Assembly (NCBI RefSeq): GCF_024758505.1
Contig: NZ_CP077970.1
Span: 1,178,001-1,242,000 of the forward strand
DNA length: 64,000 nucleotides
Source: Bradyrhizobium arachidis
GTDB taxonomy: Bacteria; Pseudomonadota; Alphaproteobacteria; Rhizobiales; Xanthobacteraceae
Direction: 5' to 3'
Numbering within the stretch: position 1 is the stretch's first letter; the number at the start of each line of letters is the position of its first letter. Positions 3,676-60,729 of the stretch are shown here, one piece after another. Made by a program: the position numbers and the translations under genes. The notes below the pieces were generated by a model that saw only the letters and a list, made by a program, of their open reading frames with translations, made no database searches and had not been told where the DNA came from.

Positions 3676-3913
3676 AAGTGCAGTACCGCTGACCTCGCTT
3701 GCCCCTTGACGGCAGGGTGAGGAAGGCGCCTCTGCGCTGGATCTTATGGTTTGAGTGGGAATTGACCGTCGTTGCGAGGGGCAGGAGCACATGAGCGAAG
3801 CTATGTCAGATGTTGGACCGATCGCTTTCTTGGCTTGCTTTCCGAGGACTGGCGGGAAACTCGCAGTGCATCCCTGCTTTGTGAAGGGATGCCGCGGACA
3901 ACCGCTAAAGCCT

Positions 3914-12977: not shown

Positions 12978-13416
12978 GAGTCTCTCCCCGATTCTGGTCG
13001 TGAGAGGCTCTGGATGCGCCAGAAAGCAGGGCAGCTGATGGCGTTCGATCCTTCAACGCCAGATCGAGAAGCGCAGAGAGCGCCGCAAGTGCGTCAATGC
13101 TGACAAACGGCTGGGCTGTCAAAGGCTCAGCGTCAGGGCATGCCGTCCGGTCGAACATCCATGCTGGAACTTCCAGGCAACGATCTGTTTGCGATCCATC
13201 AAGAGAGCAGCGGAAAGCGACATCATCAGCCTTCTCGACCCTTCCATGAACGCAAACTCGGCGACCAAACCAGGGATGATGTCGATAAAGAACCTCGCGA
13301 AGAACGGTCCTGTGGGCGTTCTTGAGCCTTGTTGTACAACCGAACCCGGCTCCATTCCGCAATCGGATATATCGCACTGATCGAGATGGAGCTAAAAGCC
13401 GCTTAAACCCTCCCAC
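12745..13416 (-). CDS. First gene of the recombinase cassette (DUF5372-like), frame possibly altered
   Basis: Residues about 45-125 (13042-13284) read as a compact conserved-looking domain: [33 protein letters not shown], then a helix [16 protein letters not shown]. This is the pattern of the small protein often found upstream of large serine recombinases in rhizobia. The start is unclear, since the N-terminal 44 residues look unrelated. The last 75 codons run through the 79-residue ORF in another frame, so the native stop has probably been lost. The core is likely real but the ends are uncertain. Confidence 0.5.
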
Positions 13417-22383: not shown

Positions 22384-25300
22384 GTGGAGTTCCCATCAAC
22401 GAACTGGGTGCGCCAACAATCGGGCAGTGCAGACCCGCAAGAGAGCTCACCGGCTCCGTCCGCAGATGCGGCGGCCTTTGAGCAGCAGCTGAGCGAGATC
22501 GGCAATTCAGGCAGCCGCGTGCTGATGCTGTCGCCCATTCATCAACTGGGCGCATCGCCATCGGAGGCTCAGCCCATCATGCAAGGGAGCGGGCCAGAAG
22601 ACGCGCCAGCATCGCATAGTGGAGGCGGTGGAGCGATGGAGGCCGCCTCGGCGCTGCAGCGGAGTCAGTCAACTGGGGTTTTGGCGGGTGGCAGCAAGCG
22701 CCCTGTTTATCCCCAGGATGCCTTCATTATTTTGAGACTTGAGTCAGCCCTCATAAAAGGGGGAGCTGCGAAACGCACCGCAGGGAACAATGTAAGTAAT
22801 CTTCTCACTTTGGACCGTTGGCTCTTTGAGAATAAGAAGGAGGCTATTGCTTCCCGGCTTGATAACGAGTCGCTGGCCGCTGATGTCGCCGAGTTCATAG
22901 GAAAGGGTGGCACCAAAAAGGTTCGCAAGGCGCTAGACCATCTCCGCACCTCCGAGTTATCGGGCGGAGTCGTGCCGATCACAGGCCTCGCCGACTTGAC
23001 TCCATATCCCGAGGACGCGGTTCTCATCAAGGAGTATAAAAACGAAGAACGGACACCTACCGCCCGGAACTATGCAACTGCTCTTAGCAGGTTCAGTGAC
23101 TACCTGCGTGAAAAGAACAAACGCAGCATTGCGGGTCGGCTTTCCGATAAATCGCTGGACGAAGATATCCGCGCCTACAAGAAAGGGCCCGTTCGTGACC
23201 CGCAGATCGGGTCCGCACTGGCGCGTCTCCGAAAGTCCCGAGCGGGCGCCCAAGCGATGGAACTCGAGCGTCAGGTGCTCCCAGCTCCTTTGAAAGACGC
23301 GATCCTGATGGAGTCGCCACCCGTTGGGGACGCCGCTGCGCAGCCCAGCGCATCGGAGCGAGCCATCCAGTGGCCAGAGGTCCTTCGTGCGGAAGGGCAC
23401 GATGGGGATCTAGCTTCGGGCACGATGGACGAAGCCGGCCCCTCGTCGTCTCCCGAGTCAACCGCGCAAGACGGAGCATCGCCAGGGGAGACGCCGCTCA
23501 TCATGCAAGGGAGTGCGCCAGAAGACACGCCAGCGTCTCATGGTGGAGACGGTGGAGCGATGTTGGGCGCCTCGGTGCTGCAGCCGGGCGAGTCAACTGG
23601 GGTTTACGTCGATGGCAGCATGCGCCCTCTTTATTCCGATGACGCATCCCTTATCGTGGGGCTTGAGGAGACCATCGTTGGGTCCAATGGAGAACATCTT
23701 CTCAACTTGGCTCGTTGGCTCTTTGCAAACAACAGGCCCGGCATTGCTGCTCGGTTGCACGACGACTCACTCAGCCAGGATGTCGAAGAGTTCGAGAGGA
23801 GCTATGGTTCATCGTCCGTCGTTACGGCCTTAGCTTTTCTCAAGGCTCCTCGGTCGACGGAAGTGGTGCCGCCGCGCGTGAAACGCGCTGTTCTGAATCC
23901 TTATCCCGATGATGCGGCGCTCATCAACCAATACAAAGCAGCGCCTGCGCAAGGGATCACTCAAGATACCGCCAAGAGCTACGCAACTCTTCTTGCCGAC
24001 TTCAGTAACTATCTGCGGAACAAGATCAAGGCGGGCATTGCTACTCGGCTTACCAACCGGTCGCTGCATGAACTAGATAAGGATGTCGAGGGCTATAAGG
24101 ACTCCGGTGGTAAACGGAAGATCCGTACCGCACTCTCTCATTTCCTAAAATCGCCGGCGGTCGCCCGAGCGATGGGGCTTGAGCGCCAGCTTCCCTCCCG
24201 ACCTGAACGTGCGGTCGTGACAGAGCCGAGATTCGTCGGAGATGATGCTACGCAGCACAGCGCATCGCTGGGAGCTGTCAGCGGGGCGGAGATCCTCCCT
24301 ACGGAGGAGCACGATCAGAATTTGACTTGGGAGATGATGGACGAAGCGTCGTCGACGCTTGAGCCAACCGCGCAACTCACTGCGTCACCACCGGCGACCC
24401 AGCCCATCATGCAGGCGGGTGCGCATGAATACACTCGCGCGTCGCCGGAACGCGGTGGGACGATTCCCGGGGCTTCCGCGCTGCAGCCGGGCCAGTCGCC
24501 TTGGGCTTTCGTAGGTCTGATCGGAGATCCTCTATATTCCCGGGACGCGTCCCTTATCGAGGGACTAAGACCAGCGCTCATCAAGCGCGGCTTCAAGCCC
24601 CGCAGCATCAGGGACAATGTCAATGCTCTTCTCAGATTGGGGCGTTGGCTCCTTAAAAACAACAAGCCGGAAATTGCTGCTCGGCTTAACCACGAGTCGC
24701 TGGATGAAGATACCAAGGCATTCGACAAGACTCGGAACCGGTCCATCCTTACGGCATTAGGTCATCTTCGGGCATCCAAGTTGGAAAGCGGAAGCAAGCC
24801 GATCGCAAGCCGCGCTGACTGGAATCCCTATGATGATGATGCGGCCCTTATTAGAGAATACAAAGCGACCGTCATCAAGAACCGCAAAACTGCGAACAAA
24901 TACGCAACCGCTCTTAACAGTTTCAGTGAGTACCTTCGCAAGGGCAACAAACCGGGATTTGCCGCTCGGCTTTCCAATAAGTCGTTGGATGAAGATGTCA
25001 CGAGCTATCGGAACGAGCCCGGCAGCAATCCGAAGATCCGTGCTGCACTGTCTCACTTACGAGAATCGGCGGCAGGCGCCCGAGCAATCGAGCTCGAGGA
25101 GCCGGCTGCGCACCCTGGCGACGCGGCTGACGGTGACGAGTCCTTGGGTCCTTTCAACGGGTCCCGCGACCACAATCACTTTCCGGACGAACTGATGGGT
25201 TGGAGCAATCTCCATCCAAGCGAGGAAGTCCTCATCAACAACGAGCAAGACACCCCGGAGGTGAGACCAGCGGAGAGACTGGGTGCTTTGAACAATTCGC

Positions 25301-27810
25301 AAGGCCTTCCCAGTGAGCGCCAGCTCAGCGAGAGCGATAACTTAGGCGGTCGTGTGCCGCAGGCCTCCACACACGATGTGGATGCAGCATTGCCTGAGGT
25401 GCAACCCATGACGCATGCAAGCGCGTACGAATACTCCACCCTATCGCATGCTGCAGGCGAGCGGATCGAGTTCCCCGCCGAGTTGAAGGGACGTTCTCGT
25501 CGCGGATCCCGTGCTGACTTGGGGCCTAGCACGCGCCCGATTCATCCTGAGGATTCGTCTTTCATCTCAGGGCTTAAGGAAGCAATGGTTCTGGCAAATT
25601 ACCAGGAGACTACCGCAGATGCCAATGTACGTGCTCTTCGCCGGCTGAGCCATTGGCTCTTGGTCAGCGAGAAGCCGGCCATCAACGTTCGGCTTGAGAA
25701 CAAATCGCTGGATCAGGATGCTGCGAAGTCCGGTGATCGCTTCATCGGTGTAGCACTAGCTCATCTTCGGGAGTTCAAGTCGCCCCGCGGAATTGCTCCA
25801 ATCGCACGGCGAGGTAAGGGGGCGGGGGAGTCCGCAGCGCAGCGCAGCGCCTCGCAGGGGCCTTTCAGTTGGCCCGAGGAGCTGCCCCCGGGGGAGGATG
25901 ATCAGGATGTTCCCGAGGAAGCCTTAAGCTGGCCAGAGGAGCTCGCTTGGGAGAGTAATCATCAAATGTCTCTCGAGCCATCTGCGCACGAGCGCCACGC
26001 GCGCGATCCCAGCGAGGCTTTTCACGCCTTGAACTGGGGCCGTGAGCACCAGCAGGCGACAGATGGGCTGCTGCATGGGCTTGACATCAACAATCTCCCA
26101 CCAGATGAGGAGGTGCTCATCAATTATGAGCAGAGAACGGTGGAGTTCACAGCAGCGAAGAGGCAGAGGATATTAAGTCCGCAACGTCTCGACACGATCT
26201 GGCAGCCGGCCAGGGCAGTCAGGCCCAATGCAGGAGCGGTTGACGATTGTCTCTATCCCGGCGACGCGGATCTCATCAAGAAGTACAAAATGCAAGCTGC
26301 GACTGAGGGTACGTCAGGTACAGCTAACATCTATGCGTCCATGCTCAGCGAGTTCAGTCGCTACCTCCGCCGAAACAACAAGCACGGCATTGATGCCCAA
26401 CTTAACGACCCGTCGCTCAATGAACTGGATCAAGATGCCAGGCTATATAGAGGGGCCGGAGGTTACAGAGCTATCAGCGCAGCGCTGGCTCATCTCCGGA
26501 ACGGAGCGAGCAAACGTCTTCCCGCTCCTTTTTACGTTGCGGACGGGTCTCTAATTGCAGGGCTTGAGCCCGTACTCATCGACGCGGGGTATGAGGCGAG
26601 CACGGCCAAAACCCAATATGTTCATCCTCTTCGCAGATTCAGCCAGTGGCTATTTGCAAACAACAAGTCGGGACTCGCTGCTCGGCTCAACGAAGAGTCG
26701 ATAGACAACGATGCAGCGGAATTCGAAAAAGGTCGGAAGAATCGGGTCCTTCCTACGGCTCTAGATCGTCTCCGGAACTCCCAGTCCGAGGGCGGAATAG
26801 CATGGATCACAGTCCGCTCGAGAGACGTTGAGAGCGTCGCTCCGGAGCACAATTGGCCAGAGGAGCTCCCCCCGGAAGGTGACGATCAGGATCTGCTTGG
26901 GGAGATAGAGGAGGAAAGCCGGCCGTACGAAAGGACCACCCTTGAGCAGACACAGGAGGTAGAACAGGCTCGACCGTCGGAATCCGCTAGGTCCAGCTCA
27001 ACCTGGTCGCCACAGATGCCGTTTGACCTTGATTGGAGTCTTTGGCCGGCTTGGGAAGCCGCGCCATCATTGCCTATCGCGGCTCAATCGCCGTCCACAC
27101 CGCACGAGCTGCGTGACGATGCTCACTATGCGTTTCCGCGCACGCCGTCCTCCGGTGCGCCGGCCGGAACTTGGGATCCGACAGCCTCGATCCACGGCTC
27201 CAGCGGGCGGCTGCTCGAGGACCTGGAATGGTTGGGCGATGAGCATATCGGGGCGGATTACGCACTCCTGTTGCAGGAGTTGCAGAGGGACAATCCGGAT
27301 CTGGCGGCCCGGACTCGATTCGTGGAGCCCGCGACAGCCCATGTGCTGCGAAGGACCCTGAACGAGGACGTCCTCCTGGAAAACCTGCAGGGGATCGTCA
27401 ACGACCAGGATGGCAACGATACCGCCCGCTTCGTGTTTATGCCAGTGAACGACGATGAGGACAATGGCGGCCGCCATTGGTCCTTGCTGCTCCTTGATCG
27501 CGGCGCGCCGGAAGGGCCGGTTGCCTATCACTACGACTCCGCCGAGGGGCGCAATCACACCTATGCAGCAAAGCTCGCAGAAGTGCTGCATGCCCGCCTG
27601 GAGCAATCCCGAATGGCCCAGCAGCAGAACAGTTGCGATTGCGGCGTCTACGTGGTGGATGGCACGCGAGAGCTGGTTAGCCAATTGTCGCAAGGGCAAC
27701 GGCCGGAGCTGCTAAACCTCGACAACCTCGTCGCGGATCGGCGGGCACTCCAAAACCGTCTCAGAGCTGACTGCGGCACAGCTAATGCGCGCTCCCAATT
27801 CGCAATGTAA
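22384..27810 (+). CDS. nopD: NopD-type type III effector: C48 (ULP/SUMO) protease with nine integrase-like repeats
   Basis: A 1808-residue effector, GTG start, with a tts box 224 bases upstream. After a Ser/Pro-rich secretion region come nine repeats of about 80-90 residues (about 105-1470) alternating between two types. Type A contains RPLYSxDA and RWLFxNNKPxIAARL; type B contains NPYPDDAALI and SFSxYLR. Acidic linkers with WPEELPPEGDDQDL separate some. The C-terminal ULP1-like domain (about 1600-1790) has the full catalytic set: His1698 (RHWSL), Asp1718 (YHYDS), Gln1748 and Cys1753 (NSCDCGVYV). NopD and XopD relatives remove SUMO or ubiquitin-like proteins from plant nuclear targets. It is unusually long because of repeat expansion. 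Protease activity is expected; the role of the repeats is inference. Confidence 0.92.
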   Translation: MEFPSTNWVRQQSGSADPQESSPAPSADAAAFEQQLSEIGNSGSRVLMLSPIHQLGASPSEAQPIMQGSGPEDAPASHSGGGGAMEAASALQRSQSTGVLAGGSKRPVYPQDAFIILRLESALIKGGAAKRTAGNNVSNLLTLDRWLFENKKEAIASRLDNESLAADVAEFIGKGGTKKVRKALDHLRTSELSGGVVPITGLADLTPYPEDAVLIKEYKNEERTPTARNYATALSRFSDYLREKNKRSIAGRLSDKSLDEDIRAYKKGPVRDPQIGSALARLRKSRAGAQAMELERQVLPAPLKDAILMESPPVGDAAAQPSASERAIQWPEVLRAEGHDGDLASGTMDEAGPSSSPESTAQDGASPGETPLIMQGSAPEDTPASHGGDGGAMLGASVLQPGESTGVYVDGSMRPLYSDDASLIVGLEETIVGSNGEHLLNLARWLFANNRPGIAARLHDDSLSQDVEEFERSYGSSSVVTALAFLKAPRSTEVVPPRVKRAVLNPYPDDAALINQYKAAPAQGITQDTAKSYATLLADFSNYLRNKIKAGIATRLTNRSLHELDKDVEGYKDSGGKRKIRTALSHFLKSPAVARAMGLERQLPSRPERAVVTEPRFVGDDATQHSASLGAVSGAEILPTEEHDQNLTWEMMDEASSTLEPTAQLTASPPATQPIMQAGAHEYTRASPERGGTIPGASALQPGQSPWAFVGLIGDPLYSRDASLIEGLRPALIKRGFKPRSIRDNVNALLRLGRWLLKNNKPEIAARLNHESLDEDTKAFDKTRNRSILTALGHLRASKLESGSKPIASRADWNPYDDDAALIREYKATVIKNRKTANKYATALNSFSEYLRKGNKPGFAARLSNKSLDEDVTSYRNEPGSNPKIRAALSHLRESAAGARAIELEEPAAHPGDAADGDESLGPFNGSRDHNHFPDELMGWSNLHPSEEVLINNEQDTPEVRPAERLGALNNSQGLPSERQLSESDNLGGRVPQASTHDVDAALPEVQPMTHASAYEYSTLSHAAGERIEFPAELKGRSRRGSRADLGPSTRPIHPEDSSFISGLKEAMVLANYQETTADANVRALRRLSHWLLVSEKPAINVRLENKSLDQDAAKSGDRFIGVALAHLREFKSPRGIAPIARRGKGAGESAAQRSASQGPFSWPEELPPGEDDQDVPEEALSWPEELAWESNHQMSLEPSAHERHARDPSEAFHALNWGREHQQATDGLLHGLDINNLPPDEEVLINYEQRTVEFTAAKRQRILSPQRLDTIWQPARAVRPNAGAVDDCLYPGDADLIKKYKMQAATEGTSGTANIYASMLSEFSRYLRRNNKHGIDAQLNDPSLNELDQDARLYRGAGGYRAISAALAHLRNGASKRLPAPFYVADGSLIAGLEPVLIDAGYEASTAKTQYVHPLRRFSQWLFANNKSGLAARLNEESIDNDAAEFEKGRKNRVLPTALDRLRNSQSEGGIAWITVRSRDVESVAPEHNWPEELPPEGDDQDLLGEIEEESRPYERTTLEQTQEVEQARPSESARSSSTWSPQMPFDLDWSLWPAWEAAPSLPIAAQSPSTPHELRDDAHYAFPRTPSSGAPAGTWDPTASIHGSSGRLLEDLEWLGDEHIGADYALLLQELQRDNPDLAARTRFVEPATAHVLRRTLNEDVLLENLQGIVNDQDGNDTARFVFMPVNDDEDNGGRHWSLLLLDRGAPEGPVAYHYDSAEGRNHTYAAKLAEVLHARLEQSRMAQQQNSCDCGVYVVDGTRELVSQLSQGQRPELLNLDNLVADRRALQNRLRADCGTANARSQFAM
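22695..26790 (+). repeat. Nine alternating A/B protein repeats within NopD-type gene
   Basis: Type A units start near 22700, 23625, 24525, 25530 and 26525; type B units near 22995, 23895, 24820 and 26245. Each has an N-terminal acidic DA[SA]LI segment, a helix, a W/Y-L-R/F helix pair, an ARLxxxSLDxD motif and a final ALxHLR helix. The helical pattern recalls the SAM-like core-binding domain of tyrosine recombinases. Copies are diverged, unlike the near-identical 174-bp units at 13477-14250. Confidence 0.8.
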
Positions 27811-30416: not shown

Positions 30417-30493
30417 TGGCGCACCCGACACGATTCGAACGTATGGCCTCCACCTTCGGAGGATGGTACTCTATCCAGCTGAGCTACGGGTGC
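30417..30493 (-). tRNA. tRNA-Arg (anticodon CCG)
   Basis: The minus strand folds as a 77-base tRNA. The acceptor stem GCACCCG pairs with CGGGTGC, with discriminator G and encoded CCA at the 3' end. The D arm contains AGCTCAGCTGGATAGAG. The anticodon stem CCATC/GGTGG encloses CTCCGAA, giving anticodon CCG. The T arm contains GTTCGAATC. The 3' end faces the truncated GH88-like gene, only 12 bases away, the usual side for island integration. Confidence 0.95.
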
Positions 30494-35343: not shown

Positions 35344-36039
35344 TCATTGATCGTGGCTAATTTGCAGGTCGAAAAGCGCTAGGGATTGTCGATCCAGGAT
35401 CACGATTTCGCGTTGAGTATTGCCCATGAAATCAAGGATGCCCGCCTTGTGCAGTTGCGACACCGCACGCGATACAGTCTCGAGCGTCAGGCCAAGGTAA
35501 TCGGCGATATCGCGACGGGACATCGGTAGCGAGATTACGCCGGCGGCGGATAGCCGCCCATCCATCTCAAGCAAGAACGCGGCAACCCTCTCAAGTGAGG
35601 TTTTGCGTCCCAGCAACAGCATATGGTTTTCGGCGTGCTGCAGGTTGTCGGTTGTCAGACCGAGCAGGTTACGCCAGACAACGACATCACTGTCGGCGGC
35701 CACTTCAAGGCTTGCCCGTCTCATCACGCGAACAGTGGTTTTGACCACCGCTTCTGCGGTAAATCGATGTGTCTCACCATTCTCGAGCCCAAAGATGTCG
35801 CCGTCCAAATGAAATGCGCCGATCTGGCGGCGACCGTCAGAGAGCAATTTATAGCTTCGCACCCCTCCGCGTTTGACCTGATAGACATACTCGGCGGCTT
35901 CCTTCTCCCCGTAGATTTCCCGTCCCTTTCTGTAAGTGAATTCACCCAGGCCGATGATTGGGGTGAAATCGCTCGACAGGCCAAAATCTCTGAGCGAATC
36001 TGAGCGAGGCGTCTGGCGTGTGGTGATGCGCGCAAACAT
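35344..36039 (-). CDS. Crp/Fnr-family transcription regulator, FixK-like
   Basis: A 231-residue regulator. The N-terminal cyclic-nucleotide-binding-type fold includes EAAEYVYQVKRGGVRSYKLL and GAFHLDGDIFGLE. The C-terminal winged helix has MSRRDIADYLGLTLETVSRA, with the Glu and Ser-Arg that contact TTGAT-N4-ATCAA sites. It lacks the N-terminal cysteine cluster of Fnr, so it is closer to FixK, which activates microaerobic genes under FixJ control in rhizobia. The start has AGGAG upstream. A matching FixK box lies 458 bases away, upstream of the divergent DUF3551 gene. Confidence 0.88.
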   Translation of the reverse strand: MFARITTRQTPRSDSLRDFGLSSDFTPIIGLGEFTYRKGREIYGEKEAAEYVYQVKRGGVRSYKLLSDGRRQIGAFHLDGDIFGLENGETHRFTAEAVVKTTVRVMRRASLEVAADSDVVVWRNLLGLTTDNLQHAENHMLLLGRKTSLERVAAFLLEMDGRLSAAGVISLPMSRRDIADYLGLTLETVSRAVSQLHKAGILDFMGNTQREIVILDRQSLALFDLQISHDQ

Positions 36040-38512: not shown

Positions 38513-39205
38513 TTAAACCAAGACGGCAGTGAAAATCAGCCCGTCCGCGAACATAAAGCGACCGCGAAGCTCACGCGTACCGCCGCAAGTATGCGGTAGG
38601 GGACGAGAAAGACGAGCCCGGAATGCATGATCATTTGCAGTAAAGGTCACCATAGCGTCCTGGAACCCCAGCCACGCCCCGGTGAGCGGAAACCACGCCT
38701 TGAAGATGCTCTCCTTGGCGCTGAAGAGCAGCCGATCCCAATGGATGTCCCCTGGGGCGCCGGTGAGCCACGATTGCTCTTCGTCGACTGCGATGTATGC
38801 TAACAGACCTGGTGGCAGCGCCTCGTCGATCTCTGCGTCAATTCCAATTGAATGATAGCTCGCGCGGAAGGCGACAGCTGCTGCGCAGAATCCCGGACAA
38901 TGCGTTATGCTCCCAACCACAGCTGGCGGCCAAAGGGGTTCACGATGTAGGCCGCTGGGGATCGGGCAAGGAGGAACGCCTAACTCGGACAACGCTGCTC
39001 TTGCACAGGCACGTCCGACCGCAAACTCATGCCTTCTCCTGTCGACGGCCGTGGCCACGGCTCCTTCTTCCGTGGGCAGGAGTTCAGCTCCGCCGTTCCA
39101 AGTACCGGGACAGGTTCGCACAACAACGTTCGACGGCAGCAGCTGACGGCTCGATCGCAAGCGCCGCCGTTCAAGACCGCTACTATAGCTGCATGACTCT
39201 TGCAC
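38513..39205 (-). CDS. Sfp/EntD-type 4'-phosphopantetheinyl transferase
   Basis: A 230-residue enzyme that transfers the phosphopantetheine arm from coenzyme A to carrier-protein serines. Motifs: VGSITHCPGFCAAAVAF (P1/P2 region), GIDAEIDEALP (Mg-binding Asp and acidic partner) and LLFSAKESIFKAWFPLTG (WxxKEA-type motif). It resembles EntD-like members. It follows the NRPS and MATE genes on the same strand, with 84 bases to the MATE stop, so it most likely primes the two carrier domains of that NRPS (Ser591 and Ser1640). Residues 1-40 are Arg/Ser-rich and an internal start is possible. Confidence 0.9.
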   Translation of the reverse strand: MQESCSYSSGLERRRLRSSRQLLPSNVVVRTCPGTWNGGAELLPTEEGAVATAVDRRRHEFAVGRACARAALSELGVPPCPIPSGLHREPLWPPAVVGSITHCPGFCAAAVAFRASYHSIGIDAEIDEALPPGLLAYIAVDEEQSWLTGAPGDIHWDRLLFSAKESIFKAWFPLTGAWLGFQDAMVTFTANDHAFRARLSRPLPHTCGGTRELRGRFMFADGLIFTAVLV

Positions 39206-39289
39206 GTTACGCTCATCACTTTCTTGGATCGCAACATCTGCCGGCCATGTGGGCTCAATGCTCTGGCCGCGATGATGTCCGTTGTCAGG

Positions 39290-40702
39290 TCAACTCGTCA
39301 TCTCGATCGCTCTTGAAGTCGGGTGACGTCGTCCGAGCTCAGCGAACTGGTTGAACATGACGAACAGCGCGATCATTCCGGCACCCAGCTCAGCGAATGC
39401 TTGACTGGCCAACAGCCCGTTGAAACCCCATATGACCGGGAATAACAGTACGGCCGGTATGAAGAGATAGCTCTGCCTCGCCAAGGACACAACCGCACTG
39501 AGGCGTGCCCTCCCGAACGACTGAAGCATGGTCGTCACGAAGCTCTGAATACCAAAAAGCCAAAAAAAGAGATGAAAGACGATACAGCTCGAGACGGCAA
39601 CTTCCGTGACCTTCTCGCTGTCGCTGAACAGCCTGACCAAAGGTCGGGCCAAAATCACAACGGTCGCAGAATATGCAACGGAAAGAACAACAGCCATGGA
39701 GAGCATGAACTTCGCAGCCTTCAATACCCGAGCAAAGTCGCGTGCGCCCCAACCGTACCCCAGGACAGCTTGAGAGCCTATGCAGAAGCCGGTGATAGGC
39801 AGTGCGCCGATCATCAGCAATCGCACAGCTATTCCCACTGCCGCGATGGAATCGTCGCCGAACGGCGCAGCAGCTCCGTACAAGAGCATAGAGGCAATGG
39901 CGGATAAAATACTGGTCATGGTCGCCGGCGCTCCTATGAGCGCGAGCTGTCTGATGCGAGCTGCTCGCAACGAGATGTGAGATATCCTGACGAGGACCAT
40001 CCGGCGTAGCTTTGTAAAATACGCGATATAGAGGCAAATAGCAGCGATCTGAGATACCAGCGTTGCCAGGGCTGCGCCTCGCACGCCGAGGTGCAGCAGG
40101 AATATGAGCACAGGATCAAGCGCGGCGTTCAGTATGAAGGCGGTCATCATCGTCCACATGCTGAATCGTGTGTTGCCTTCGGCTCGGACGATGAAGCCGT
40201 TGACGATGTTCAGAAGCATCAGGGTATATCCGAACAATATCGTCGCCGCGTAGTCGAGCGCCAGGGGCATGATGGTTGGCGTGGCCCCCAGCGTTACGAA
40301 GATCCCTCGCAGATTTAGAAGCAGAGCGGCGGTAAACATGATGCCGATCGGAGCGGCGAGCGCCAGTGCAGTACTGGCGCCACGACTCGCCTCCAGGTAC
40401 TCACCAGCGCCAAGATGACGAGATATGAACGACGCTGCTCCAACACCAACCCCTTGTCCGACCGCCGTGAGCAGGACCACGATAGGAAAGGTCATGCTGA
40501 CGGCTGCGATCGCCTGCGTGCCAAGCGCGCCAACAAAGATCGCGTTGACGACCTGCTGTAACGCGTTGATCGATAAGCCAACAATAGACGGAATGGCGAG
40601 CCGCAGGATAAGGCTCGAGAGATTGGGGTCCGATAGATCGATGTGCTGCTTCTTCTTTGGCATCGCGATCGCTCTCGACGGCAAATTCCGTTTCCGGCTC
40701 AT
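39290..40702 (-). CDS. MATE-family exporter coupled to NRPS
   Basis: A 470-residue inner-membrane protein with twelve hydrophobic helices in two halves (LAIPSIVGLSINALQQVVNA begins the first; LIGAPATMTSILSAIASML the second), of the DinF/NorM-like MATE type. Its ATG overlaps the NRPS stop as ATGA, so the two are translated together. This strongly suggests export of the NRPS product. It is only distantly similar to the MATE protein at 7085-8554. The first 14 residues are basic; ATG at residue 14 is an alternative start. Confidence 0.92.
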   Translation of the reverse strand: MSRKRNLPSRAIAMPKKKQHIDLSDPNLSSLILRLAIPSIVGLSINALQQVVNAIFVGALGTQAIAAVSMTFPIVVLLTAVGQGVGVGAASFISRHLGAGEYLEASRGASTALALAAPIGIMFTAALLLNLRGIFVTLGATPTIMPLALDYAATILFGYTLMLLNIVNGFIVRAEGNTRFSMWTMMTAFILNAALDPVLIFLLHLGVRGAALATLVSQIAAICLYIAYFTKLRRMVLVRISHISLRAARIRQLALIGAPATMTSILSAIASMLLYGAAAPFGDDSIAAVGIAVRLLMIGALPITGFCIGSQAVLGYGWGARDFARVLKAAKFMLSMAVVLSVAYSATVVILARPLVRLFSDSEKVTEVAVSSCIVFHLFFWLFGIQSFVTTMLQSFGRARLSAVVSLARQSYLFIPAVLLFPVIWGFNGLLASQAFAELGAGMIALFVMFNQFAELGRRHPTSRAIEMTS

Positions 40703-43700
40703 TCATGGATGAAGGTGTCGCCAGTCTTTCCGAATTCGCTGATCGTCTGCAACAGCTCCTGTCGCAACACCGTGCAAAGATTGCGGGTCACCTCATAACC
40801 CACTTGGGTCGGATTATATCTCGTTTCGATCTGTAGATGGCCGGCTTCATAGCCGACGCTGAACCAGAAGAGGTAGTTCACTCCTGCTTCATCCATCTCT
40901 TTGCCGATCCAGAGTGGAGAAGGGTCCTTGGCTAGGAAGTGCCGTGGAAAATGGCGCTGCAAACCAACTCGGTAATTCAATCCAATTCGGGGTAAGGGCA
41001 GGCGATTGATCCGGCTCCGCACGGCGGGATCTCGGTTCAGGAATTTCATGGCGCGAAAGCCTATTGCGCTGCGCGGCAGGGCATTGCGCTGGCGATAAAT
41101 TGAACGAGCACGATCGGGCCTGGGCTCCGTTCCCGTGAGAGCCAAGGGAAGCGGAACGATCTCGCTGATAACGCCGATAATCTGAGATGGATCGAGATCA
41201 TCAAACAGCCGACCTCGGGTGGAGGTGAGGCTATCAATCCAGAGCGAATAGCTGCCGAAAACCTGTCCAAAGGCGCCGGATATGGCGGCAAGGAACACAT
41301 CAAAGTCCTGACAATGCACCGATCTGGCCGCAATATTGAGGAGACGAGCTGTCGCTTCCTTGTCAATCTCCAGATAGTACTTGGCCTGATCTTCCCAAAG
41401 GGACCGGCAAGCTGCTTCATTCAAGCGACCTTCAAGGCCTGCATAGTGAAGCTCTCTTGCGGTCACTTCCGAAAAGCTCGCAGCCCCCGATGAAGTGTCG
41501 CTGATATGTAAATCGAACTGATGGTAGTCAATCCCCTCCCAGTATGAGAGTTCAGCTGGCGCTTCGCTGTTCGCGTAGTGCTCAAGGCGCTTCAACCATG
41601 GGGAGAGCATTTGTATGTTCTCGGGACCCGTCACGGCGTGGCCCGAGGCAAGTGCGTTGTACGCCGCATCCATTGCTTCCAGGAACAGTCGATAGCCTAT
41701 CCCGTCCGCTACAAAATGATGCAAAAGGAAGAGCAGATGGTAATCGCCGCTTTCCGAGGTGCGGAACGCCGCGACGTTAACAAGAGGCGTCTGGCCGTCA
41801 AACCGAAACATATGTTGACGTCTGGCTGAGATGCTCTCGATTGCCTTACGCTGTTCTAGGCCGGTCATTCCGACAAGATCGATCTCCTCCACGAGGCGTT
41901 CAGCCACGGAAGGTCCAATTGTCACACGTAGACCATCGTCGGTTCGGGCAATGCGGAGTCTGAGGCCTTCGTGCCTATCCATGACATGGGCAAGGGCATG
42001 CTCGAGAATTCGAATATTCAGTAGTCCGCGGGGCAAGAAGAAAAGATCGCCGATGTTGAAATGCTCATCGAAGCCGGCGAGACGGTTCCAAGATGAGATG
42101 GCGGGGGTGACTGGCAATGAGCTGTCCCCCGAAGGGAAGGTATCGGGTGTAGCCGCCGCGCCGTCTGCCGCTAATTCCCTGATGGTCGGTGTTCGATAAA
42201 GTTGGTCGACAGTGAGAGTCAGCCCGGCTTTGCGCGCCAGCGTGACGCAGCGCACGCTCAGAAGAGAGTTTCCGCCGATATCAAAGAAGTTTTGATCGAT
42301 TCCGACCCACTTGGCGCCCAATAGATCCTGCCAGATCGTAGCAAGAATATGCTCCTCCCTCGTGCGGGGCTTAGCAGATGGGCCGGGCCCGACCTCGCGG
42401 TAAGGAACGGACGACAGGCGAGCACGATCTATCTTTCCGCTCGCTGTAACGGGGATACTGTCAACCAAACGGAAGGCGGCAGGAATCATATAGGACGGCA
42501 ATGTTTGGCGCAGGTGGGTGACAATATCTCCAGAGCTCAGACTGTCGCGAGCCGGAACCACGCTAGCGGTCAAGCGACGATGATCCTCTATGCCGTCCGC
42601 GACGACCGCGGCCTTTGCGATTGCCGGGTGAGACTCAAGGGCCGTTTCGACCTCCTCTAGCTCGATACGAAAGCCCCGTACCTTGATCTGGTTGTCCGAT
42701 CGGCCGCAAATCTCGAGAAGGCCGCCGGTTGAGATGCGTGCGATATCGCCACTTCGATAAAGAATGCTGTATTGTCCGTCATCATACGGATTGGGCACAA
42801 AACAGCGGTTGGTCCGATCTTGATCCCGCCAGTACCCAGTACTCACGCAGCGTCCCGCGATGCAGAGTTCGCCGGCGGCTCCGACAGGGGCTCTCTTCAA
42901 CTGGGCATCGAGCACGTAGAGTTTGACGTTATCGATTGCGCGCCCCACGGGGACGAGCGAAGAGCCGTTGTCGGCATCCGATGTTTCGTAGATTGCGGCA
43001 TTCGACGCGCATTCTGTAGCACCATAGAAGTTCCACAACGGCACGTCCGGGAAATGCGTACGCCAGCGAACGGGGAGCCAGGCAGGCATCGGTTCGGCGC
43101 TGCTTGTGACCAACCGCAAGGCGGTTGGTCGCGGGTGTCGCTCCTGGGAAGCAATGAGGCCGGACAGGAGTGGGGGCGAGGCAAATAAGTGTGTCACGCG
43201 ATGTCTTACCAACATGCACAATAATAGCTCTGGATCCAGCAACTGCTCTTGGGTCAGGATCAGCGCGGGCACACCTCTTAGAAGCCCCCCAAAGTACTCC
43301 CAAGCGGACGCAACAAGGGATGCGGACTTCTGGATAACCATCACATCGGTACTGTTGAAGCGAAAGCTTCGCCACATCCAGTTCAGTCGATTGAGAATTG
43401 CCGATTCCGGTATCAGAACCCCCTTGGCCCTCCCGGTCGAGGACGACGTGTATATAAGGCTCGCAATTCCCTGATCGGATGATTTGTCGCTGCGCTCAAA
43501 ATCGTACGCGGGCGCGTCGCACTCTTCGAGGTTCAATAGACAAATCGACGGCATGTCAAAACCAAGGTCAGCGGCATTTGCGTGAACCAGCAGCTTTGCC
43601 TGAGTATCTCGCAGGATATGTTCGATCCGATGACGCGGATAATCCGGCGATATTGGGACAACAATGGACTGCAAGGCTCGCGCCGCAAGAAAAACAGCGG

Positions 43701-46700
43701 CCATGTCAGGCGACCGGTCGACCAGCATAGCGACCATATCGCCAGCCCCCACGTCGGAAGCCTGCAGCAACGACCTGATGGCTGTTACGCGCTCGCGCAA
43801 TTGGCCGAATGTGATCTCACCGAAATCACCGAAATATGCCACCTGGCTGCGATTGGAGACGCTGATCTGATCGAACGCTTCGACAAGCGGACATTCAGCC
43901 TCATATGGCTGCGCCGAGCCATCCAGCGAGTCCAGCATAGTGACGTCTGACACGCTGAGGCAGCTCAGGTCTTTAATGGGCGCAAGCGGCTTCTCGACGC
44001 AGGCTGCAATCAGACAGCGCAAATTGTCGGCCATCCGGACAATCAGATCGCTGGAAAATATACCCTCAGCATACGCCAGCTGGAGGGCAATTTCATCGTT
44101 CTGATCTTGTGCGTACAATGTCAGATCAAATTTTACATAGCCGGTCTCATATTCGCGAAATGTCAGATCCAACTCATGTTGGCCAAGTGGCTCCGCGGCC
44201 TCGGAATACATGTTGAACATGACCTGGAAGATCGGTGAGCGTCCGGCCTCGCGATGTAGCCGGATATCCCTTACCATCCAGCCGAACGGATATGCTGAAT
44301 TTGCGATGGCATCGCTGACCAGGTCCTGGATGCGTAAAGCATGAACCGCAAACGACTGGCCGACATCGATCGCGGTGCGGATTGGCAGCATATTGAGGAA
44401 GAAGCCAACAATGTCGGTGCTGCCAGGTTGATCCCGTACGACGTGCGGTGTGCCAACGATAATATCGTCCTGACCGCTATACATCTTCAGCAGCAGCTTG
44501 AAGCATGCGAGGAGTGTTGTCGATGTGGTGCACCTATGTCGCCGCGCAAACTCCCGTACCTGATTGGAGAGATCGCTGCCAAGAAGTACCGCATGCGAGG
44601 CGCCGCGGTGCGAATTTGTCTGCGGCCGCGCTTTTCCCGTTCCAAGCGAAAGCACTGGCGGATCATCACCAATCTGACGACGCCAATAGCTACGTTGGTT
44701 GGCCAGCGTCTCCGGAGTCACGTGTTGCTTTTCCCAGAGAGCGTAGGTCGAGAGCGACGCGCGGTTCTCTGGCAAAAACGCAGCCGCATCTACGCACCGT
44801 TGTCGAAGGTCCCTGATTAGAACAGAGATCGACCAGGCGTCGATGATAATTTCGTGAGCGGTGATCAGTATGAGATGGTTGTCAGAGCCAAAACGGATCA
44901 TGCGCGCGCGAAACAGATGGCCTTGGCTGAGATCAAAGCTTCCGTTCAGCTCTGTGCGCCGTAACTCTGCGATCAGCTCCTCACCTTCCTGCGCCGTGAG
45001 ATGAGACGCGTCAGTCAATTCAAGACTTGCACGTTGCGGAGCATCAAAAAGCTGAACCGGACCGTCCTCGTCGATAAAGCGGGCCGATAGTGCCTGATGG
45101 GAATGAACGACATCGGTCCAGGCGCGATTGAACGCGGCCAGATCGATGATTCCCCTTATTCGCAGGCCGCCCTGGATGACGTAGTCCCTGGCAGACGGAT
45201 CAAGCTGCGAGAGAAACCATAGGTGCTCCTGAACTCGCGTCAGAGGCGATCGCAAAAGCTTTCCGTAGGTCGGGGCTATGCACGGTTTGGAGTCGAATCG
45301 GGCCGAGATCGAAGCGGCGAGAGATCGGATCGTTCCATTCAGCACCAGCCTGAAATCCGTTTTCACTCCGAGTTGGGTCTGCAACTGGCTCAATATGAGC
45401 ATTGCCCGGAGCGAGTCTCCGCCGAGGCTTATGAATTGGTCATTCACGCCAATGTTCTCAATACGCAAAACGGCGGACCAAATTTGACACAGCTGGGCTT
45501 CAAGTCCTGTTTGCGGTTCTTCGAATGGCGTCGGCAATGCAGGGCGAACACTGGTCGGGTCCGGCAATGCTCCAAAATCGACCTTTCCGTTTCTGGTGAG
45601 CGGAATACGGCCGACGTGGATGATCCTCTCTGGCAGCATGTAGGTGGGAAGCGCTTCGGCAAGAAAGTTCCGAAGCTCGCCTTCCGTCAGTTCAGCCGGA
45701 GCTGATACATACGCGATGAGTCGTCTCGATCCGGTGGCACCCTCGACCCCGGTTATGTCTCTCGCCATAAGCTTTACGCCTGCGCAGACGGAGGCGACCG
45801 CGACGGCGCCACGTACCGAATGATGAGCGGAGAGGCGGGCCTCGAGTTCTCCCAGCTCAATTCTGTGCCCGCGGATTTTGACCTGACGGTCCCTTCGACC
45901 GAGACATTCCAAAAGGCCATCGGAACGAACGCGCCCGAGATCACCGGTCCTGTATAGACGCCTGAGCGGCGGGTCGTTTGAGAACGGGTTTGGCACAAAG
46001 GCTTCATTGGTGCGGACATCGTCATTGACGTAACCAGCGGCGACACCAACGCCGCTAACACATATTTCGCCGACCTCTCCCGTGTTGCACAGCCGCGATC
46101 CCTCGGCGACATAAACCTCAAGGTTAGAAATCGGCTTGCCGATCGGCACATAAAGGTCAGCCAGCGCAGGCGGTACGGAAACCAGATGATGTGTAACGCC
46201 GTCCGCGCACTCGGTTGGCCCGTAGTGGTTGAGAATGGGAACCCGGGGATACAAGGCAAGCCACGAGCGCGCCAGTCCGGGTGTTAGAGGCTCTCCGACC
46301 GTAGAGATGATCCGCAAACTGTCCAGAGCTCGCTCAGCCGCCGCTAGCGACTGCAGATGTTCAATAAATATTGCAAGCATCGACGGAACGAATTGAACAA
46401 CCGTCACGCCGTACCCTTGAATTGCTTTGAGAAGGGATGCTGGCGATTTCAGTGTCGCATCATCAAGGATCGCGATACAGCCTCCGACGCAAAGCCCGGC
46501 CAGAAGCTGCCACAACGAGATGTCAAAGCAGTGCGATGCCGTCTGCGCGATGCAATCCGTCCGAGTGAGGGCTAGGGCATTAGATTTTTCCGCCAGATGA
46601 TTGTTTAGGGCTGCGCGCTCGATCATTGCGCCCTTAGGCAGGCCCGTCGAACCAGACGTAAACAGAATGTAGGCGAGTCCATCCTCGTTCGAGGACGGCA

Positions 46701-47184
46701 CGACAGACGAAGTCTGGCCATGTCGTAACGCGGCCTCTATCGGCATGAATTGCGTGGCGCCTTTGCTATTCGCCTGTGACAGGCTGGGCGAATCCAGCTG
46801 GTGTGGGCCAATAATCAAAGCGCAGCGGCTCTGCTCGATCATGAATGATGTACGCGAAGCCGGTAACGATGGATCGAGCGGCAGGTACGTTGATGCCGCC
46901 TTCAAAATTGCGACGACCGCCGTCGCCCAGTCGAGGTCCCGCTCACCCCAATAGCCGACGACCGCGCCCTGAGCGCCATGCTCTCGTAATGTCCTTGCGA
47001 GGGCATCCGATCTTGATCGCAGCGCTTTGTAGGTGAGTTCGCCTGCGCCGACCCTCAGCGCAACCCTCTCCGGATCCGATCTTGCAATGCGATCGATCGC
47101 CATGATCGCGTCGATCGGCCGACATTCCACAAACCGATTCTTGCCGGATCGATCCTCGGTAGCCATAGGTGTCACGCCATTCAT
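40699..47184 (-). CDS. Dimodular non-ribosomal peptide synthetase (A-T-C-A-T-E-like)
   Basis: A 2161-residue synthetase. A1 about 25-540 (FTSGSTGLPKG at 175-185, YGPTECA, Lys534). T1 Ser591 in LGGDSL. C about 645-1070, with the active motif AHEIIIDAW (His777, Asp782) instead of HHxxxDG. A2 about 1095-1590 (YTSSSTGRAKG, FYGATECA, Lys1584). T2 Ser1640 in IGGNSL. The C-terminal domain from about 1690 has HHFVADG (1822-1828), DDLDPSQIIG and LNYRVG, which align with epimerisation domains, but the EGHGRE glutamate is missing. There is no thioesterase or reductase, so release is unclear. The product would be a dipeptide-sized compound. A2 has Val1291 where amino-acid-binding pockets have Asp. Coupled to MATE and PPTase; sigma-54/NifA sites upstream. 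Confidence 0.95.
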   Translation of the reverse strand: MNGVTPMATEDRSGKNRFVECRPIDAIMAIDRIARSDPERVALRVGAGELTYKALRSRSDALARTLREHGAQGAVVGYWGERDLDWATAVVAILKAASTYLPLDPSLPASRTSFMIEQSRCALIIGPHQLDSPSLSQANSKGATQFMPIEAALRHGQTSSVVPSSNEDGLAYILFTSGSTGLPKGAMIERAALNNHLAEKSNALALTRTDCIAQTASHCFDISLWQLLAGLCVGGCIAILDDATLKSPASLLKAIQGYGVTVVQFVPSMLAIFIEHLQSLAAAERALDSLRIISTVGEPLTPGLARSWLALYPRVPILNHYGPTECADGVTHHLVSVPPALADLYVPIGKPISNLEVYVAEGSRLCNTGEVGEICVSGVGVAAGYVNDDVRTNEAFVPNPFSNDPPLRRLYRTGDLGRVRSDGLLECLGRRDRQVKIRGHRIELGELEARLSAHHSVRGAVAVASVCAGVKLMARDITGVEGATGSRRLIAYVSAPAELTEGELRNFLAEALPTYMLPERIIHVGRIPLTRNGKVDFGALPDPTSVRPALPTPFEEPQTGLEAQLCQIWSAVLRIENIGVNDQFISLGGDSLRAMLILSQLQTQLGVKTDFRLVLNGTIRSLAASISARFDSKPCIAPTYGKLLRSPLTRVQEHLWFLSQLDPSARDYVIQGGLRIRGIIDLAAFNRAWTDVVHSHQALSARFIDEDGPVQLFDAPQRASLELTDASHLTAQEGEELIAELRRTELNGSFDLSQGHLFRARMIRFGSDNHLILITAHEIIIDAWSISVLIRDLRQRCVDAAAFLPENRASLSTYALWEKQHVTPETLANQRSYWRRQIGDDPPVLSLGTGKARPQTNSHRGASHAVLLGSDLSNQVREFARRHRCTTSTTLLACFKLLLKMYSGQDDIIVGTPHVVRDQPGSTDIVGFFLNMLPIRTAIDVGQSFAVHALRIQDLVSDAIANSAYPFGWMVRDIRLHREAGRSPIFQVMFNMYSEAAEPLGQHELDLTFREYETGYVKFDLTLYAQDQNDEIALQLAYAEGIFSSDLIVRMADNLRCLIAACVEKPLAPIKDLSCLSVSDVTMLDSLDGSAQPYEAECPLVEAFDQISVSNRSQVAYFGDFGEITFGQLRERVTAIRSLLQASDVGAGDMVAMLVDRSPDMAAVFLAARALQSIVVPISPDYPRHRIEHILRDTQAKLLVHANAADLGFDMPSICLLNLEECDAPAYDFERSDKSSDQGIASLIYTSSSTGRAKGVLIPESAILNRLNWMWRSFRFNSTDVMVIQKSASLVASAWEYFGGLLRGVPALILTQEQLLDPELLLCMLVRHRVTHLFASPPLLSGLIASQERHPRPTALRLVTSSAEPMPAWLPVRWRTHFPDVPLWNFYGATECASNAAIYETSDADNGSSLVPVGRAIDNVKLYVLDAQLKRAPVGAAGELCIAGRCVSTGYWRDQDRTNRCFVPNPYDDGQYSILYRSGDIARISTGGLLEICGRSDNQIKVRGFRIELEEVETALESHPAIAKAAVVADGIEDHRRLTASVVPARDSLSSGDIVTHLRQTLPSYMIPAAFRLVDSIPVTASGKIDRARLSSVPYREVGPGPSAKPRTREEHILATIWQDLLGAKWVGIDQNFFDIGGNSLLSVRCVTLARKAGLTLTVDQLYRTPTIRELAADGAAATPDTFPSGDSSLPVTPAISSWNRLAGFDEHFNIGDLFFLPRGLLNIRILEHALAHVMDRHEGLRLRIARTDDGLRVTIGPSVAERLVEEIDLVGMTGLEQRKAIESISARRQHMFRFDGQTPLVNVAAFRTSESGDYHLLFLLHHFVADGIGYRLFLEAMDAAYNALASGHAVTGPENIQMLSPWLKRLEHYANSEAPAELSYWEGIDYHQFDLHISDTSSGAASFSEVTARELHYAGLEGRLNEAACRSLWEDQAKYYLEIDKEATARLLNIAARSVHCQDFDVFLAAISGAFGQVFGSYSLWIDSLTSTRGRLFDDLDPSQIIGVISEIVPLPLALTGTEPRPDRARSIYRQRNALPRSAIGFRAMKFLNRDPAVRSRINRLPLPRIGLNYRVGLQRHFPRHFLAKDPSPLWIGKEMDEAGVNYLFWFSVGYEAGHLQIETRYNPTQVGYEVTRNLCTVLRQELLQTISEFGKTGDTFIHE

Positions 47185-47280
47185 CGCTTTGTGCGGCCCT
47201 TAAACTACAAATTGTTGGGAGTCCATCGATGCCCGCCGGAAGTGATCGACGCTCGGTGAACTGAACCCTCACCAGCTCTC

Positions 47281-47297
47281 AGCATCAGACGTGCCAA
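47281..47297 (-). promoter_or_regulatory. Sigma-54 -24/-12 promoter of NRPS operon
   Basis: The minus strand reads TTGGCACGTCTGATGCT. The -24 block TTGGCACG is perfect and the GG-N10-GC spacing is correct; the -12 block is ATGCT instead of TTGCT. The predicted start lies about 85 bases before the NRPS ATG at 47184. Confidence 0.75.
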
Positions 47298-47358
47298 CTT
47301 TGCCAAAGACGGATTCGTATGCTTTGCGTCGGCCAGGGCGGGGGCCTCGCGTGTTCAT

Positions 47359-47374
47359 TGTCTGGCCCCGAACA
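47359..47374. promoter_or_regulatory. NifA-type upstream activator sequence
   Basis: TGTCTGGCCCCGAACA fits TGT-N10-ACA exactly. It lies about 62-93 bases upstream of the sigma-54 promoter on the side expected for the minus-strand NRPS operon, the usual position for NifA binding. A lone TGT-N10-ACA occurs by chance; its pairing with a -24/-12 promoter is what gives weight. Confidence 0.65.
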
Positions 47375-58705: not shown

Positions 58706-59671
58706 ATGTTCAAGCCATCAGATTCTACGGCCGCTGCTGCCGTAACGCTCTCGCCCGCGGCAGTCTCTTTGCTTCGTGTAGTACGCCTTCTACTCCCAAG
58801 TGCGCGCGGTCAGGGTATCGACGCGATCTTGGGGAGCGCCATGAAAGTTAGGTTCGGTCTCATTGACGCGATCGACTGGAAAACTGCCTATGACGCCTGG
58901 GAGGCGGCAGCAGTCCCGTCCCTTCGCAAATATAAATCGGTTATCGGCGCCGAGCCAGGATTGCCGATTTCGATGTTGCCGATGCTTTCCAAAATCCCGG
59001 GACGACTGACGGCCCAAATACGCCACTGGGAAGATAGTCAGGCCCTTGAGCAGTTGTCGACGCAGCACCGGGGCGGCGACATCTTGATCGACAATTGGGC
59101 GATGGGACAGCGGTGCGGCGTCTCGATTAACAAGTCGGACAAATTGATCGATGATGCGCAGCGTGACTGGTCCGTGCTCGATATGGAGCGGCTGCTTATC
59201 ACGCGCCTCCCATGGTTCCCCCGGCGCTCGCCGATCCGGATCCGGCTCGCTGAAGACGTCCTTTTTACGACCTACGCCACGCTACGCGCCGATCGACGAG
59301 GCGAGAAGCTTTGGTGCGTCAGGCACGTCGTGGAATCGTTGGGCTCTGACTTCAACGGAATGATTGCTTTCGACGAGTCATATGCAACGCAGAATGCGTC
59401 AGCCGATTTGCCGGCGATGACGGCTGACTCGTTTGCGGCGCTCATTGACGGGCGAACAGTTTTCCATCTCGCAGAAAGTCTCCCGCTCCATCGCCCACAA
59501 GTGATAGATGCCAACCGTATTGAACTCTCCAGGTTCACCGACACCATGCGGCACCGTTTCAACTTGAAGCTACGCACGTTCATCCGCGTAGATACGGCAA
59601 ACGCGGGGGGCCTCTCTAAGGTACTGGAGAGCTATCCGCTCGCGCGGGTCGCCGAACGGGAGGGCGCGTGA
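58706..59671 (+). CDS. Strawberry-notch-like protein shortened by internal deletions
   Basis: A 321-residue protein made of separate parts of the much larger (about 1400 aa) strawberry-notch family protein of rhizobial integrative elements. Residues 1-75 match its N-terminus (PSDSTAAAAV, DWKTAYDAWEAA). About 130-230 match the region before and into the helicase core (GDILIDNWAMGQRCGVSINK, RRGEKLWCVRHVVESLGSDF, and DES at the Walker B position). About 240-321 match the C-terminal end (LPLHRPQVIDANRIELSRF). The methyltransferase-like and most helicase parts are missing, yet the frame stays open. It is probably non-functional as an NTPase. It overlaps the toprim gene start by one base. Confidence 0.7.
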   Translation: MFKPSDSTAAAAVTLSPAAVSLLRVVRLLLPSARGQGIDAILGSAMKVRFGLIDAIDWKTAYDAWEAAAVPSLRKYKSVIGAEPGLPISMLPMLSKIPGRLTAQIRHWEDSQALEQLSTQHRGGDILIDNWAMGQRCGVSINKSDKLIDDAQRDWSVLDMERLLITRLPWFPRRSPIRIRLAEDVLFTTYATLRADRRGEKLWCVRHVVESLGSDFNGMIAFDESYATQNASADLPAMTADSFAALIDGRTVFHLAESLPLHRPQVIDANRIELSRFTDTMRHRFNLKLRTFIRVDTANAGGLSKVLESYPLARVAEREGA

Positions 59672-60729
59672 TGGGAGGTCAACCTCACGATCTGACACAT
59701 CGTCTCGCGCGTGAGGCCGAGGAGGTGTGCCGCTACTATCTCTCCAACGGCCAGCGTCAAGGCAGCTACTGGATGGTCGGCGATGCCCGCAACACACCAG
59801 GGCGCTCGATGTTCGTGCGACTGATAGCTTCGCCCAAGCGGCCGGCCGGCAAATGGACGGATGCCGCAACGGGTGAACATGGCGATCTTCTCGACATCAT
59901 CCGCGAAAGCTGCGGGCTTCTCGATTTCCGCGACGTCGCCGATGAGGCGCGGCGATTTCTCAACTTGCCTCGCTCGGGCGTCGCCCCATCGAAGTTTGCG
60001 CACAGTAGAGCGCTGGCTGCTTCGCCCCAGGCGGCGGCGCGCCTCTTCGCCATCTCGCAGCCGGTCGCGGGAACCCTTGCTGAAACCTATTTGCGCGAGC
60101 GCGGCATTGCAGTTTTGGGCGAAGATGGGGAGCTGCGCTTCCACCACCGCTGCTACTACCGGTCAGATGAGGACTCAGAGACGGAGACCTGGCCGGCATT
60201 GATCGCCCGTGTCACGGACCTCCAGGGTCGGATCACTGGCGTCCATCGCACCTGGCTCGATCCTGATGGCTTCGATCGCGTGCGTCTCGGAAAGGCGCCA
60301 GTCGCCACGCCGCGGCGTGCCATGGGCAGCCTTCTCGGCAATGCGGTTCGATTCGGTGCGGCCGATGATGTGCTTACCGCGGGAGAGGGCATCGAGACGA
60401 TGCTCTCGCTTCACTGCGCAGCTCCGACAATGCCCATGGCTGCCGCGCTTTCAGCAAACCATCTTGCCGCCCTGCTGCTTCCGCTGACGCTACGCAGGCT
60501 CTATATTGCACGCGATGCCGATGCAGCCGGCGATCTCGCTGTAGCGGCGCTGACCGAGCGCGCCATCGCGGCTGGTATCGAGGCGATTGCGTTATCACCT
60601 CGACTTTCAGACTTCAACGAAGACCTGCGAACCTTCGGCCTCGGTGAACTACGCTCAGCCTTGCAGTTCCAGTTTACTCCGCTGGATGTCGCGCGCTTCA
60701 TAGGTCCGGTTGCAACCAACGGGTCCTGA
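59671..60729 (+). CDS. Toprim-domain protein (DUF7146-type)
   Basis: A 352-residue protein starting at ATG 59671 within TGATG of the preceding gene. The N-terminal half has a primase-like zinc-less domain (GSYWMVGDARNTPGRSMFVR, GKWTDAATGEHGDLLDII). The C-terminal toprim fold carries the acidic Glu in LTAGEGIETMLSL and the DxD-type pair in YIARDADAAGDLA. Such proteins occur in conjugative and integrative elements and are thought to act in DNA primase or plasmid-type replication. It appears complete. Its usual partners are the strawberry-notch, DUF2493 and ArdC proteins, all in this window. Confidence 0.85.
   Translation: MGGQPHDLTHRLAREAEEVCRYYLSNGQRQGSYWMVGDARNTPGRSMFVRLIASPKRPAGKWTDAATGEHGDLLDIIRESCGLLDFRDVADEARRFLNLPRSGVAPSKFAHSRALAASPQAAARLFAISQPVAGTLAETYLRERGIAVLGEDGELRFHHRCYYRSDEDSETETWPALIARVTDLQGRITGVHRTWLDPDGFDRVRLGKAPVATPRRAMGSLLGNAVRFGAADDVLTAGEGIETMLSLHCAAPTMPMAAALSANHLAALLLPLTLRRLYIARDADAAGDLAVAALTERAIAAGIEAIALSPRLSDFNEDLRTFGLGELRSALQFQFTPLDVARFIGPVATNGS

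Follow-up and report, generated by a model that had tools for sequence, protein, structure and literature searches.

Control of a nonribosomal peptide synthetase (NRPS) by NifA is already known from Bradyrhizobium diazoefficiens USDA110, where blr2108 is tabulated as a target of NifA and RpoN1 with a protein log2 fold change of 6.5 in microoxia and a 39-fold transcript change in soybean bacteroids, the microoxic transcript column of that table being empty for this gene (PMC6515984, Table 2). For nodules of a nifA mutant compared to wild type nodules a log2 value of -4.6 is given (PMC4926349, Table 3). The pairing of an NRPS with a MATE exporter is known as well; solanimycin (SolG/SolL) and other NRPS-MATE clusters resemble, by NCBIfam names, the locus described here. 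This locus is situated in a stretch of 64,000 nucleotides of the Bradyrhizobium arachidis genome (contig NZ_CP077970.1, positions 1,178,001 to 1,242,000), referred to as the window, in which all coordinates without a locus or genome label are given. Its proteins score far below the equivalog cut-offs of the solanimycin models (654 of 2200 bits for SolG, and 82 of 780 bits for SolL against the MATE protein).

Open reading frame analysis and a Pfam search revealed three genes on the minus strand: an NRPS gene (47184-40699; 2161 aa, ATG start, TGA stop), a gene for a MATE efflux transporter (39290..40702; 470 aa), the ATG of which overlaps the NRPS stop codon as ATGA (translationally coupled), and, after a gap of 84 bases, a gene for a 4'-phosphopantetheinyl transferase (PPTase; 38513..39205; 230 aa, GTG start). 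The original prediction of a dimodular NRPS, an overlapping exporter and a PPTase agrees with this layout to the base. The NRPS contains two AMP-binding, two Condensation and two PP-binding domains, the transporter a MatE domain and the PPTase 4PPT_N and ACPS domains. The transporter belongs to the MATE family by both PF01554 (126.7 bits) and TIGR00797 (180.1 bits versus a cut-off of 147.4). The NRPS gene is single-copy in the 9.43 Mb genome, the remaining matches showing at most 40 % identity with partial coverage only. Genome G187 of our set is taken to be that of USDA110 and its 3310-aa NRPS to be blr2108, an assignment inferred from genome data and gene positions. This enzyme, encoded ~90 kb from nodC, differs clearly from the window NRPS, with three A and three PCP domains, a thioesterase and 31-34 % identity, and the 19.5 kb surrounding its gene hold no match to the window MATE or PPTase. 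The different architecture rules out that the two are orthologues, and the published NifA dependence and nodule induction are those of blr2108. A few kb from this gene taken for blr2108 (L108:8349-18281), genes resembling panB (2471-3367) and panC (3371-4222) of pantothenate synthesis are located.

Orthologous loci were sought with short patterns from the NRPS in one genome per species (84,980 genomes), an approach that recovers close relatives only. The best 80 of 88 matches yielded 63 loci, from Bradyrhizobium (42), Sinorhizobium/Ensifer (11), Rhizobium (4), Mesorhizobium (3), Paraburkholderia (1) and Clostridia (2). In all 61 non-clostridial loci, the set used below, a MATE match adjoins the NRPS, some copies being truncated (e.g. 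L057). A downstream PPTase was found in 18 of the 61 loci, 15 of 19 outside Bradyrhizobium and 3 of 42 within, with partial matches in L072, L088 and L089; a 39 % match 0.6 kb beyond the MATE gene in L077 and a 35 % match elsewhere in L050 were excluded from this count. The linked PPTase is lineage-specific. The layout recurs in other rhizobia, but its description as a self-contained operon with its own PPTase is true for just those 18 loci and, in Bradyrhizobium, for three. Bradyrhizobium nanningense carries two NRPS-MATE copies (L042 and L078) ~54 kb apart on one contig. In Mesorhizobium huakuii (L095:8841-10822) the NRPS gene is preceded by genes for an argininosuccinate-synthase-like protein and a 2OG-Fe dioxygenase, which are perhaps precursor genes in that lineage.

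The operon co-occurs with symbiosis genes. The MATE query (E ≤ 1e-60) matched 61 of 195 genomes of the genus, a count that includes copies with stops or fragments and for which at most eight candidates were scored per genome; nifH was matched in 123 and nodC in 105. Sixty of these 61 genomes carry nifH and 58 carry nodC, and none of the 69 genomes lacking both nifH and nodC was MATE-positive. Only 57 of the 102 genomes with both genes were matched, so that the operon is not a general feature of symbionts. In the species-wide set, nodC scored above the cut-off in 50 of 50 carrier genomes (all 19 from outside Bradyrhizobium and 31 of the 41 Bradyrhizobium genomes). At the sensitivity of these searches the operon occurs in genomes with nif/nod genes.

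The promoter region of the window NRPS contains, on the minus strand, a NifA-type UAS of the form TGT-N10-ACA, TGTTCGGGGCCAGACA (47359..47374; pattern search), and a sigma-54 -24/-12 element, TTGGCACGTCTGATGCT (47281..47297; matrix score 18.3). The predicted transcription start lies at ~47271, ~95 bases from the UAS centre, leaving a leader of ~87 bases. NifA/RpoN promoters carry TGT-N10-ACA ~80-150 bases upstream and GG/GC at -24/-12, and the NRPS upstream region shows this architecture in both respects. The genome encodes nifA, and 11 further proteins match the nifA model strongly, so that the activator is inferred from the type of UAS.

Conservation of this promoter was analyzed with a composite test (a score of at least 11 with a sigma-54 weight matrix, no more than one mismatch in the UAS and 40-110 bases between the two elements, within 700 bases upstream). 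A composite site was found upstream of 22 of the 61 loci, compared to 73 of 3322 control windows (2.2 %), but very unevenly: in 16 of 19 loci outside Bradyrhizobium versus 6 of 42 within. All 16 main-clade Rhizobium, Ensifer and Mesorhizobium loci with their 5' end present carry the site; the three loci of other genera without it are L086, L087 (outgroup, 38 % identity) and L088, a broken copy whose 5' end is missing. In four positive loci the UAS has a single mismatch (L064, L067, L071, L072), and the best composite site of L060 and of L063 lies more than 550 bases upstream. The -12 element reads TTGA instead of TTGC in 12 of the 13 Rhizobium/Ensifer positives (TTTTGAA-type, A for C), a substitution also present in the nifH promoters of M. 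loti and R. etli (PMC3538637). Besides the window, the positive Bradyrhizobium loci are L029, L035, L046, L051, L075 and L089, and in these seven promoters the UAS and the -24/-12 element differ at few positions. In a phylogenetic tree these copies are nested among negative ones, consistent with either repeated loss of an old promoter or its spread through recombination. The upstream sequences of 12 negative copies align mutually with 79 % mean column identity, all without a composite site. A second promoter pattern, which misses -12 elements of the ATGC type such as that of the window NRPS, gave a single match in up to 8 kb upstream of the composite-negative Bradyrhizobium loci, 1.2 kb before L078. 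With no composite site in the 700 bases upstream of 36 of the 42 Bradyrhizobium loci, NifA control is no general property of this NRPS gene, and to that extent the original prediction must be narrowed.

These data make it fairly probable that the locus is a symbiosis-linked biosynthesis and export operon, driven by NifA and RpoN, for an exported small molecule made in nodules; the negative Bradyrhizobium loci count against this explanation. They are what would be expected if the product acted outside nitrogen fixation, in rhizosphere competition or infection, with NifA control confined to certain lineages and most Bradyrhizobium copies on another promoter, and the nesting of positive among negative copies fits this as well. 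However, the site is present in 16 of the 19 non-Bradyrhizobium loci, and searches for regulatory elements of other stages gave little. For the Bradyrhizobium copies without the promoter, control by an upstream nod box was considered and rejected: with the nod-box consensus, same-strand scores within 2.5 kb upstream were at most 26 of 41 (control maximum 25), except in L052 and L085 (32, ~2 kb away), and the reverse-strand boxes in L033 (36) and L058 (35) point away from the NRPS. Scores for tts and FixK boxes in the 700 bases upstream of loci outside the sigma-54 list were near those of shuffled controls, except for a tts-like box in L036 (14 of 19, control maximum 12). An action at another stage is therefore considered unlikely.

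The neighbourhood of the operon in the window was also compared. A cytochrome P450 gene (50725-51966, plus strand) encodes a protein scoring 434 bits with the solanimycin SolI model (cut-off 850), and a gene for a FixK/Fnr-like regulator (35344-36039, minus strand; 213 bits, cut-off 300) lies ~2.5 kb beyond the PPTase. Neither the P450 nor the Crp/Fnr neighbour was retained as a cluster member: relatives of the P450 were found near the NRPS in L029 and L089 only, and the Crp/Fnr protein has a counterpart in L029 only, apart from a partial one in L046. A GNAT neighbour is shared by L029, L046, L075 and L089. Further away, an 1808-aa protein with a C-terminal Ulp1-type C48 protease domain (22384-27810, plus strand) presumably resembles a rhizobial type III effector. 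A nearly identical 15-mer occurs four times, every 174 bases, at 13606-14142 (minus strand) inside the ORF 13403-15205, a spacing that suggests a 58-residue repeat. AAA_34 and DUF7146/Toprim genes (58706-60729, plus strand) are, as we take it, of mobile-element type, and tRNA-Arg (30417-30493, minus strand) may mark the end of an island. The nine window ORFs scanned include no TonB receptor, N-hydroxylase or catechol gene, and none was found among the annotated neighbours in four plasmid regions, for which the gene table is incomplete. This speaks against a metallophore under nif control that supplies iron or molybdenum to nitrogenase, a function that would suit the metal requirement of nitrogenase and the reported abundance of NRPS siderophore clusters in Bradyrhizobium (PMC12815270); we regard it as quite improbable.

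Whether the motifs in the window could have arisen by chance was addressed by counting. By itself, TGT-N10-ACA has 6 matches in the window (6.9 expected), and the -24/-12 pattern with at most two mismatches has 75 (70 expected); both are at chance level, and single elements thus prove nothing. The combined pattern TGT-N10-ACA N46-76 TGGCAC-N6-TGC was found only four times in the whole 9.43 Mb genome on both strands, and not at all as a reversed-pattern control, while ~0.4 sites per genome would be expected from a rough base-composition estimate. One match is the NRPS promoter. The second ends ~140 bases before the nifH match, the third is situated at the 5' end of the nifB frame and precedes its matched part, and the fourth is in the nif region ~0.7 kb before weakly monooxygenase-like and QueD-like genes. 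The nif/nod block is located on the same contig (nodC at 1790620, nifA at 1801041, nifH at 1834598), ~0.57-0.63 Mb from the operon. As a positive control, the combined pattern with a spacer of 40-70 bases gave five sites in G187 and none for the control. One of the five immediately precedes nifH and another the NRPS taken as blr2108, whose promoter is built in the same way, TGTTGGACAGCTGACA followed by TTGGCACGATACATGCG, with the same ATGC at -12. Judged by sequence, the window NRPS promoter is of the same build as the nifH and nifB promoters, which supports the NifA/sigma-54-type promoter originally proposed. That its motifs are fortuitous and the NRPS is expressed by other means would fit the counts of single elements, the rough expectation for the combined site and the many negative Bradyrhizobium copies, but is very improbable given the company of the other three matches and the retention of the site in six further Bradyrhizobium and 16 main-clade loci. 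Scarcely credible is a decaying or silent cluster carried along with symbiosis genes, which could claim early in-frame NRPS stops in L081, L083, L088 and L089, the presence of only degenerate MATE copies in G040 and G193, and the absence of a full-length NRPS match in G187 (USDA110-type) and its relative G122, where a 69-residue, 90 % identical remnant of the NRPS terminal domain is left (G187:C1:1834102-1834314, L109; G122:C1:8421266-8421475, L110), because 57 of 61 rhizobial NRPS frames exceed 2000 codons (2161 in the window), dN/dS versus seven orthologues is 0.14-0.31 and the substrate specificity residues of the A domains are conserved.

The NRPS itself (40699..47184, minus strand) has the order A1-PCP1-C1-A2-PCP2 followed by a terminal epimerase-like domain, all in one assembly line, and both carrier serines are present in 58 of 58 orthologues. 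The specificity positions of the A domains were picked by hand on GrsA numbering. A1 (45565..47091; residues 32-540) has DIWQSVHDG plus Lys, identical in all 58, and A2 (42409..43854; residues 1111-1592) the nearly invariant code VAWFTSFSNK; to our knowledge neither has a reliable match among substrate codes. At GrsA position 235, aligned to the alpha-amine-binding Asp of the LgrA A domains, A2 has V in 53 and I in 5 of 58 orthologues and so departs from A domains for alpha-amino acids. The internal condensation domain C1 (43954..45246; residues 647-1077) has HExxxDA instead of HHxxxDG (residues 777-783) in 58 of 58, and could be a dead domain; PCP1-C1 is matched by HtmB2-CT (8z0q, a 'special condensation domain'). 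The terminal C-superfamily domain (40702..42114; residues 1691-2161) retains HHFxxDG in 58 of 58 (HHFVADG in the window), while the EGHGRE motif, which in epimerization domains holds the catalytic Glu, is replaced by LTSTRGRLFDD, EGHG being present in none of the 58. Its sequence and fold are nevertheless of E-type, an assignment made from a structure model (mean pLDDT 77.2; 56.6-63.8 for the other four models) and also from sequence, and epimerization domains of the tyrocidine, gramicidin S and pyoverdine (PvdL) synthetases are among its closest systems. NRPSs usually, though not universally, have a thioesterase or reductase release domain; neither gave a Pfam match in this NRPS. Since C1 lacks the second His, A2 lacks the alpha-amine Asp and there is no thioesterase, the small peptide envisaged originally is uncertain as the product.

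A replaced second His has been described for the C domain of streptothricin ORF18, which has HQxxxDM and acts in beta-lysine peptide synthesis (PMC11546977). By its motif C1 resembles it in this replacement but has Glu and DA where ORF18 has Gln and DM. A Clostridiaceae bin and the database protein P0106 also have the pair of a C domain with HE and an A domain without Asp235.

For the nodule operon proposed above, the following sequence of events can be envisaged. At low oxygen, both in microaerobic cells and in bacteroids, NifA and RpoN would drive transcription of the operon, and the two carrier domains would be loaded by the PPTase of the operon or by one encoded elsewhere. A1 would activate one alpha-amino acid. 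The substrate of A2 would be a second acid or amino acid that has no free alpha-amine at the customary position, the simplest guess being a beta- or omega-amino acid. C1, in which Glu replaces the catalytic His, may join the building blocks via a nucleophile other than an alpha-amine, the epimerase-derived terminal domain without its catalytic Glu may release or cyclise the product, and the MATE protein would export it. Given how little the specificity residues differ among 58 orthologues, all of these enzymes probably make a single compound, or a very narrow range of compounds. Its target is most likely the nodule environment (plant cell or symbiosome) and less likely rival bacteria. More tentative, and in our view rather doubtful as a whole, is the wider proposal that several rhizobial genera share a NifA-switched exported product and that the C domain with Glu, the alpha-amine-blind A domain and the repurposed epimerase make a non-peptidic or beta-linked amide.

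In the open-access literature searched, no paper was recognised as describing the NRPS-MATE operon. As far as this literature shows, the operon family, its link with symbiosis genes in five genera, the unusual active sites conserved in its NRPS and a NifA-type promoter on such an operon are new. What the second His of C domains does is disputed (PMC11546977), and the conserved C(HE)-A(no Asp235) pair provides a naturally occurring example on which to study it. The operon is compact and common to symbionts of several genera, with no intact copy in the USDA110-type genome examined. If NifA indeed switches on an exported metabolite, nitrogen-fixing bacteroids may deliver to the host or the nodule a chemical product for which, to judge from the open-access literature searched, no one has yet looked, and if this is the case in several genera, it would be a symbiotic small molecule besides the Nod factors.
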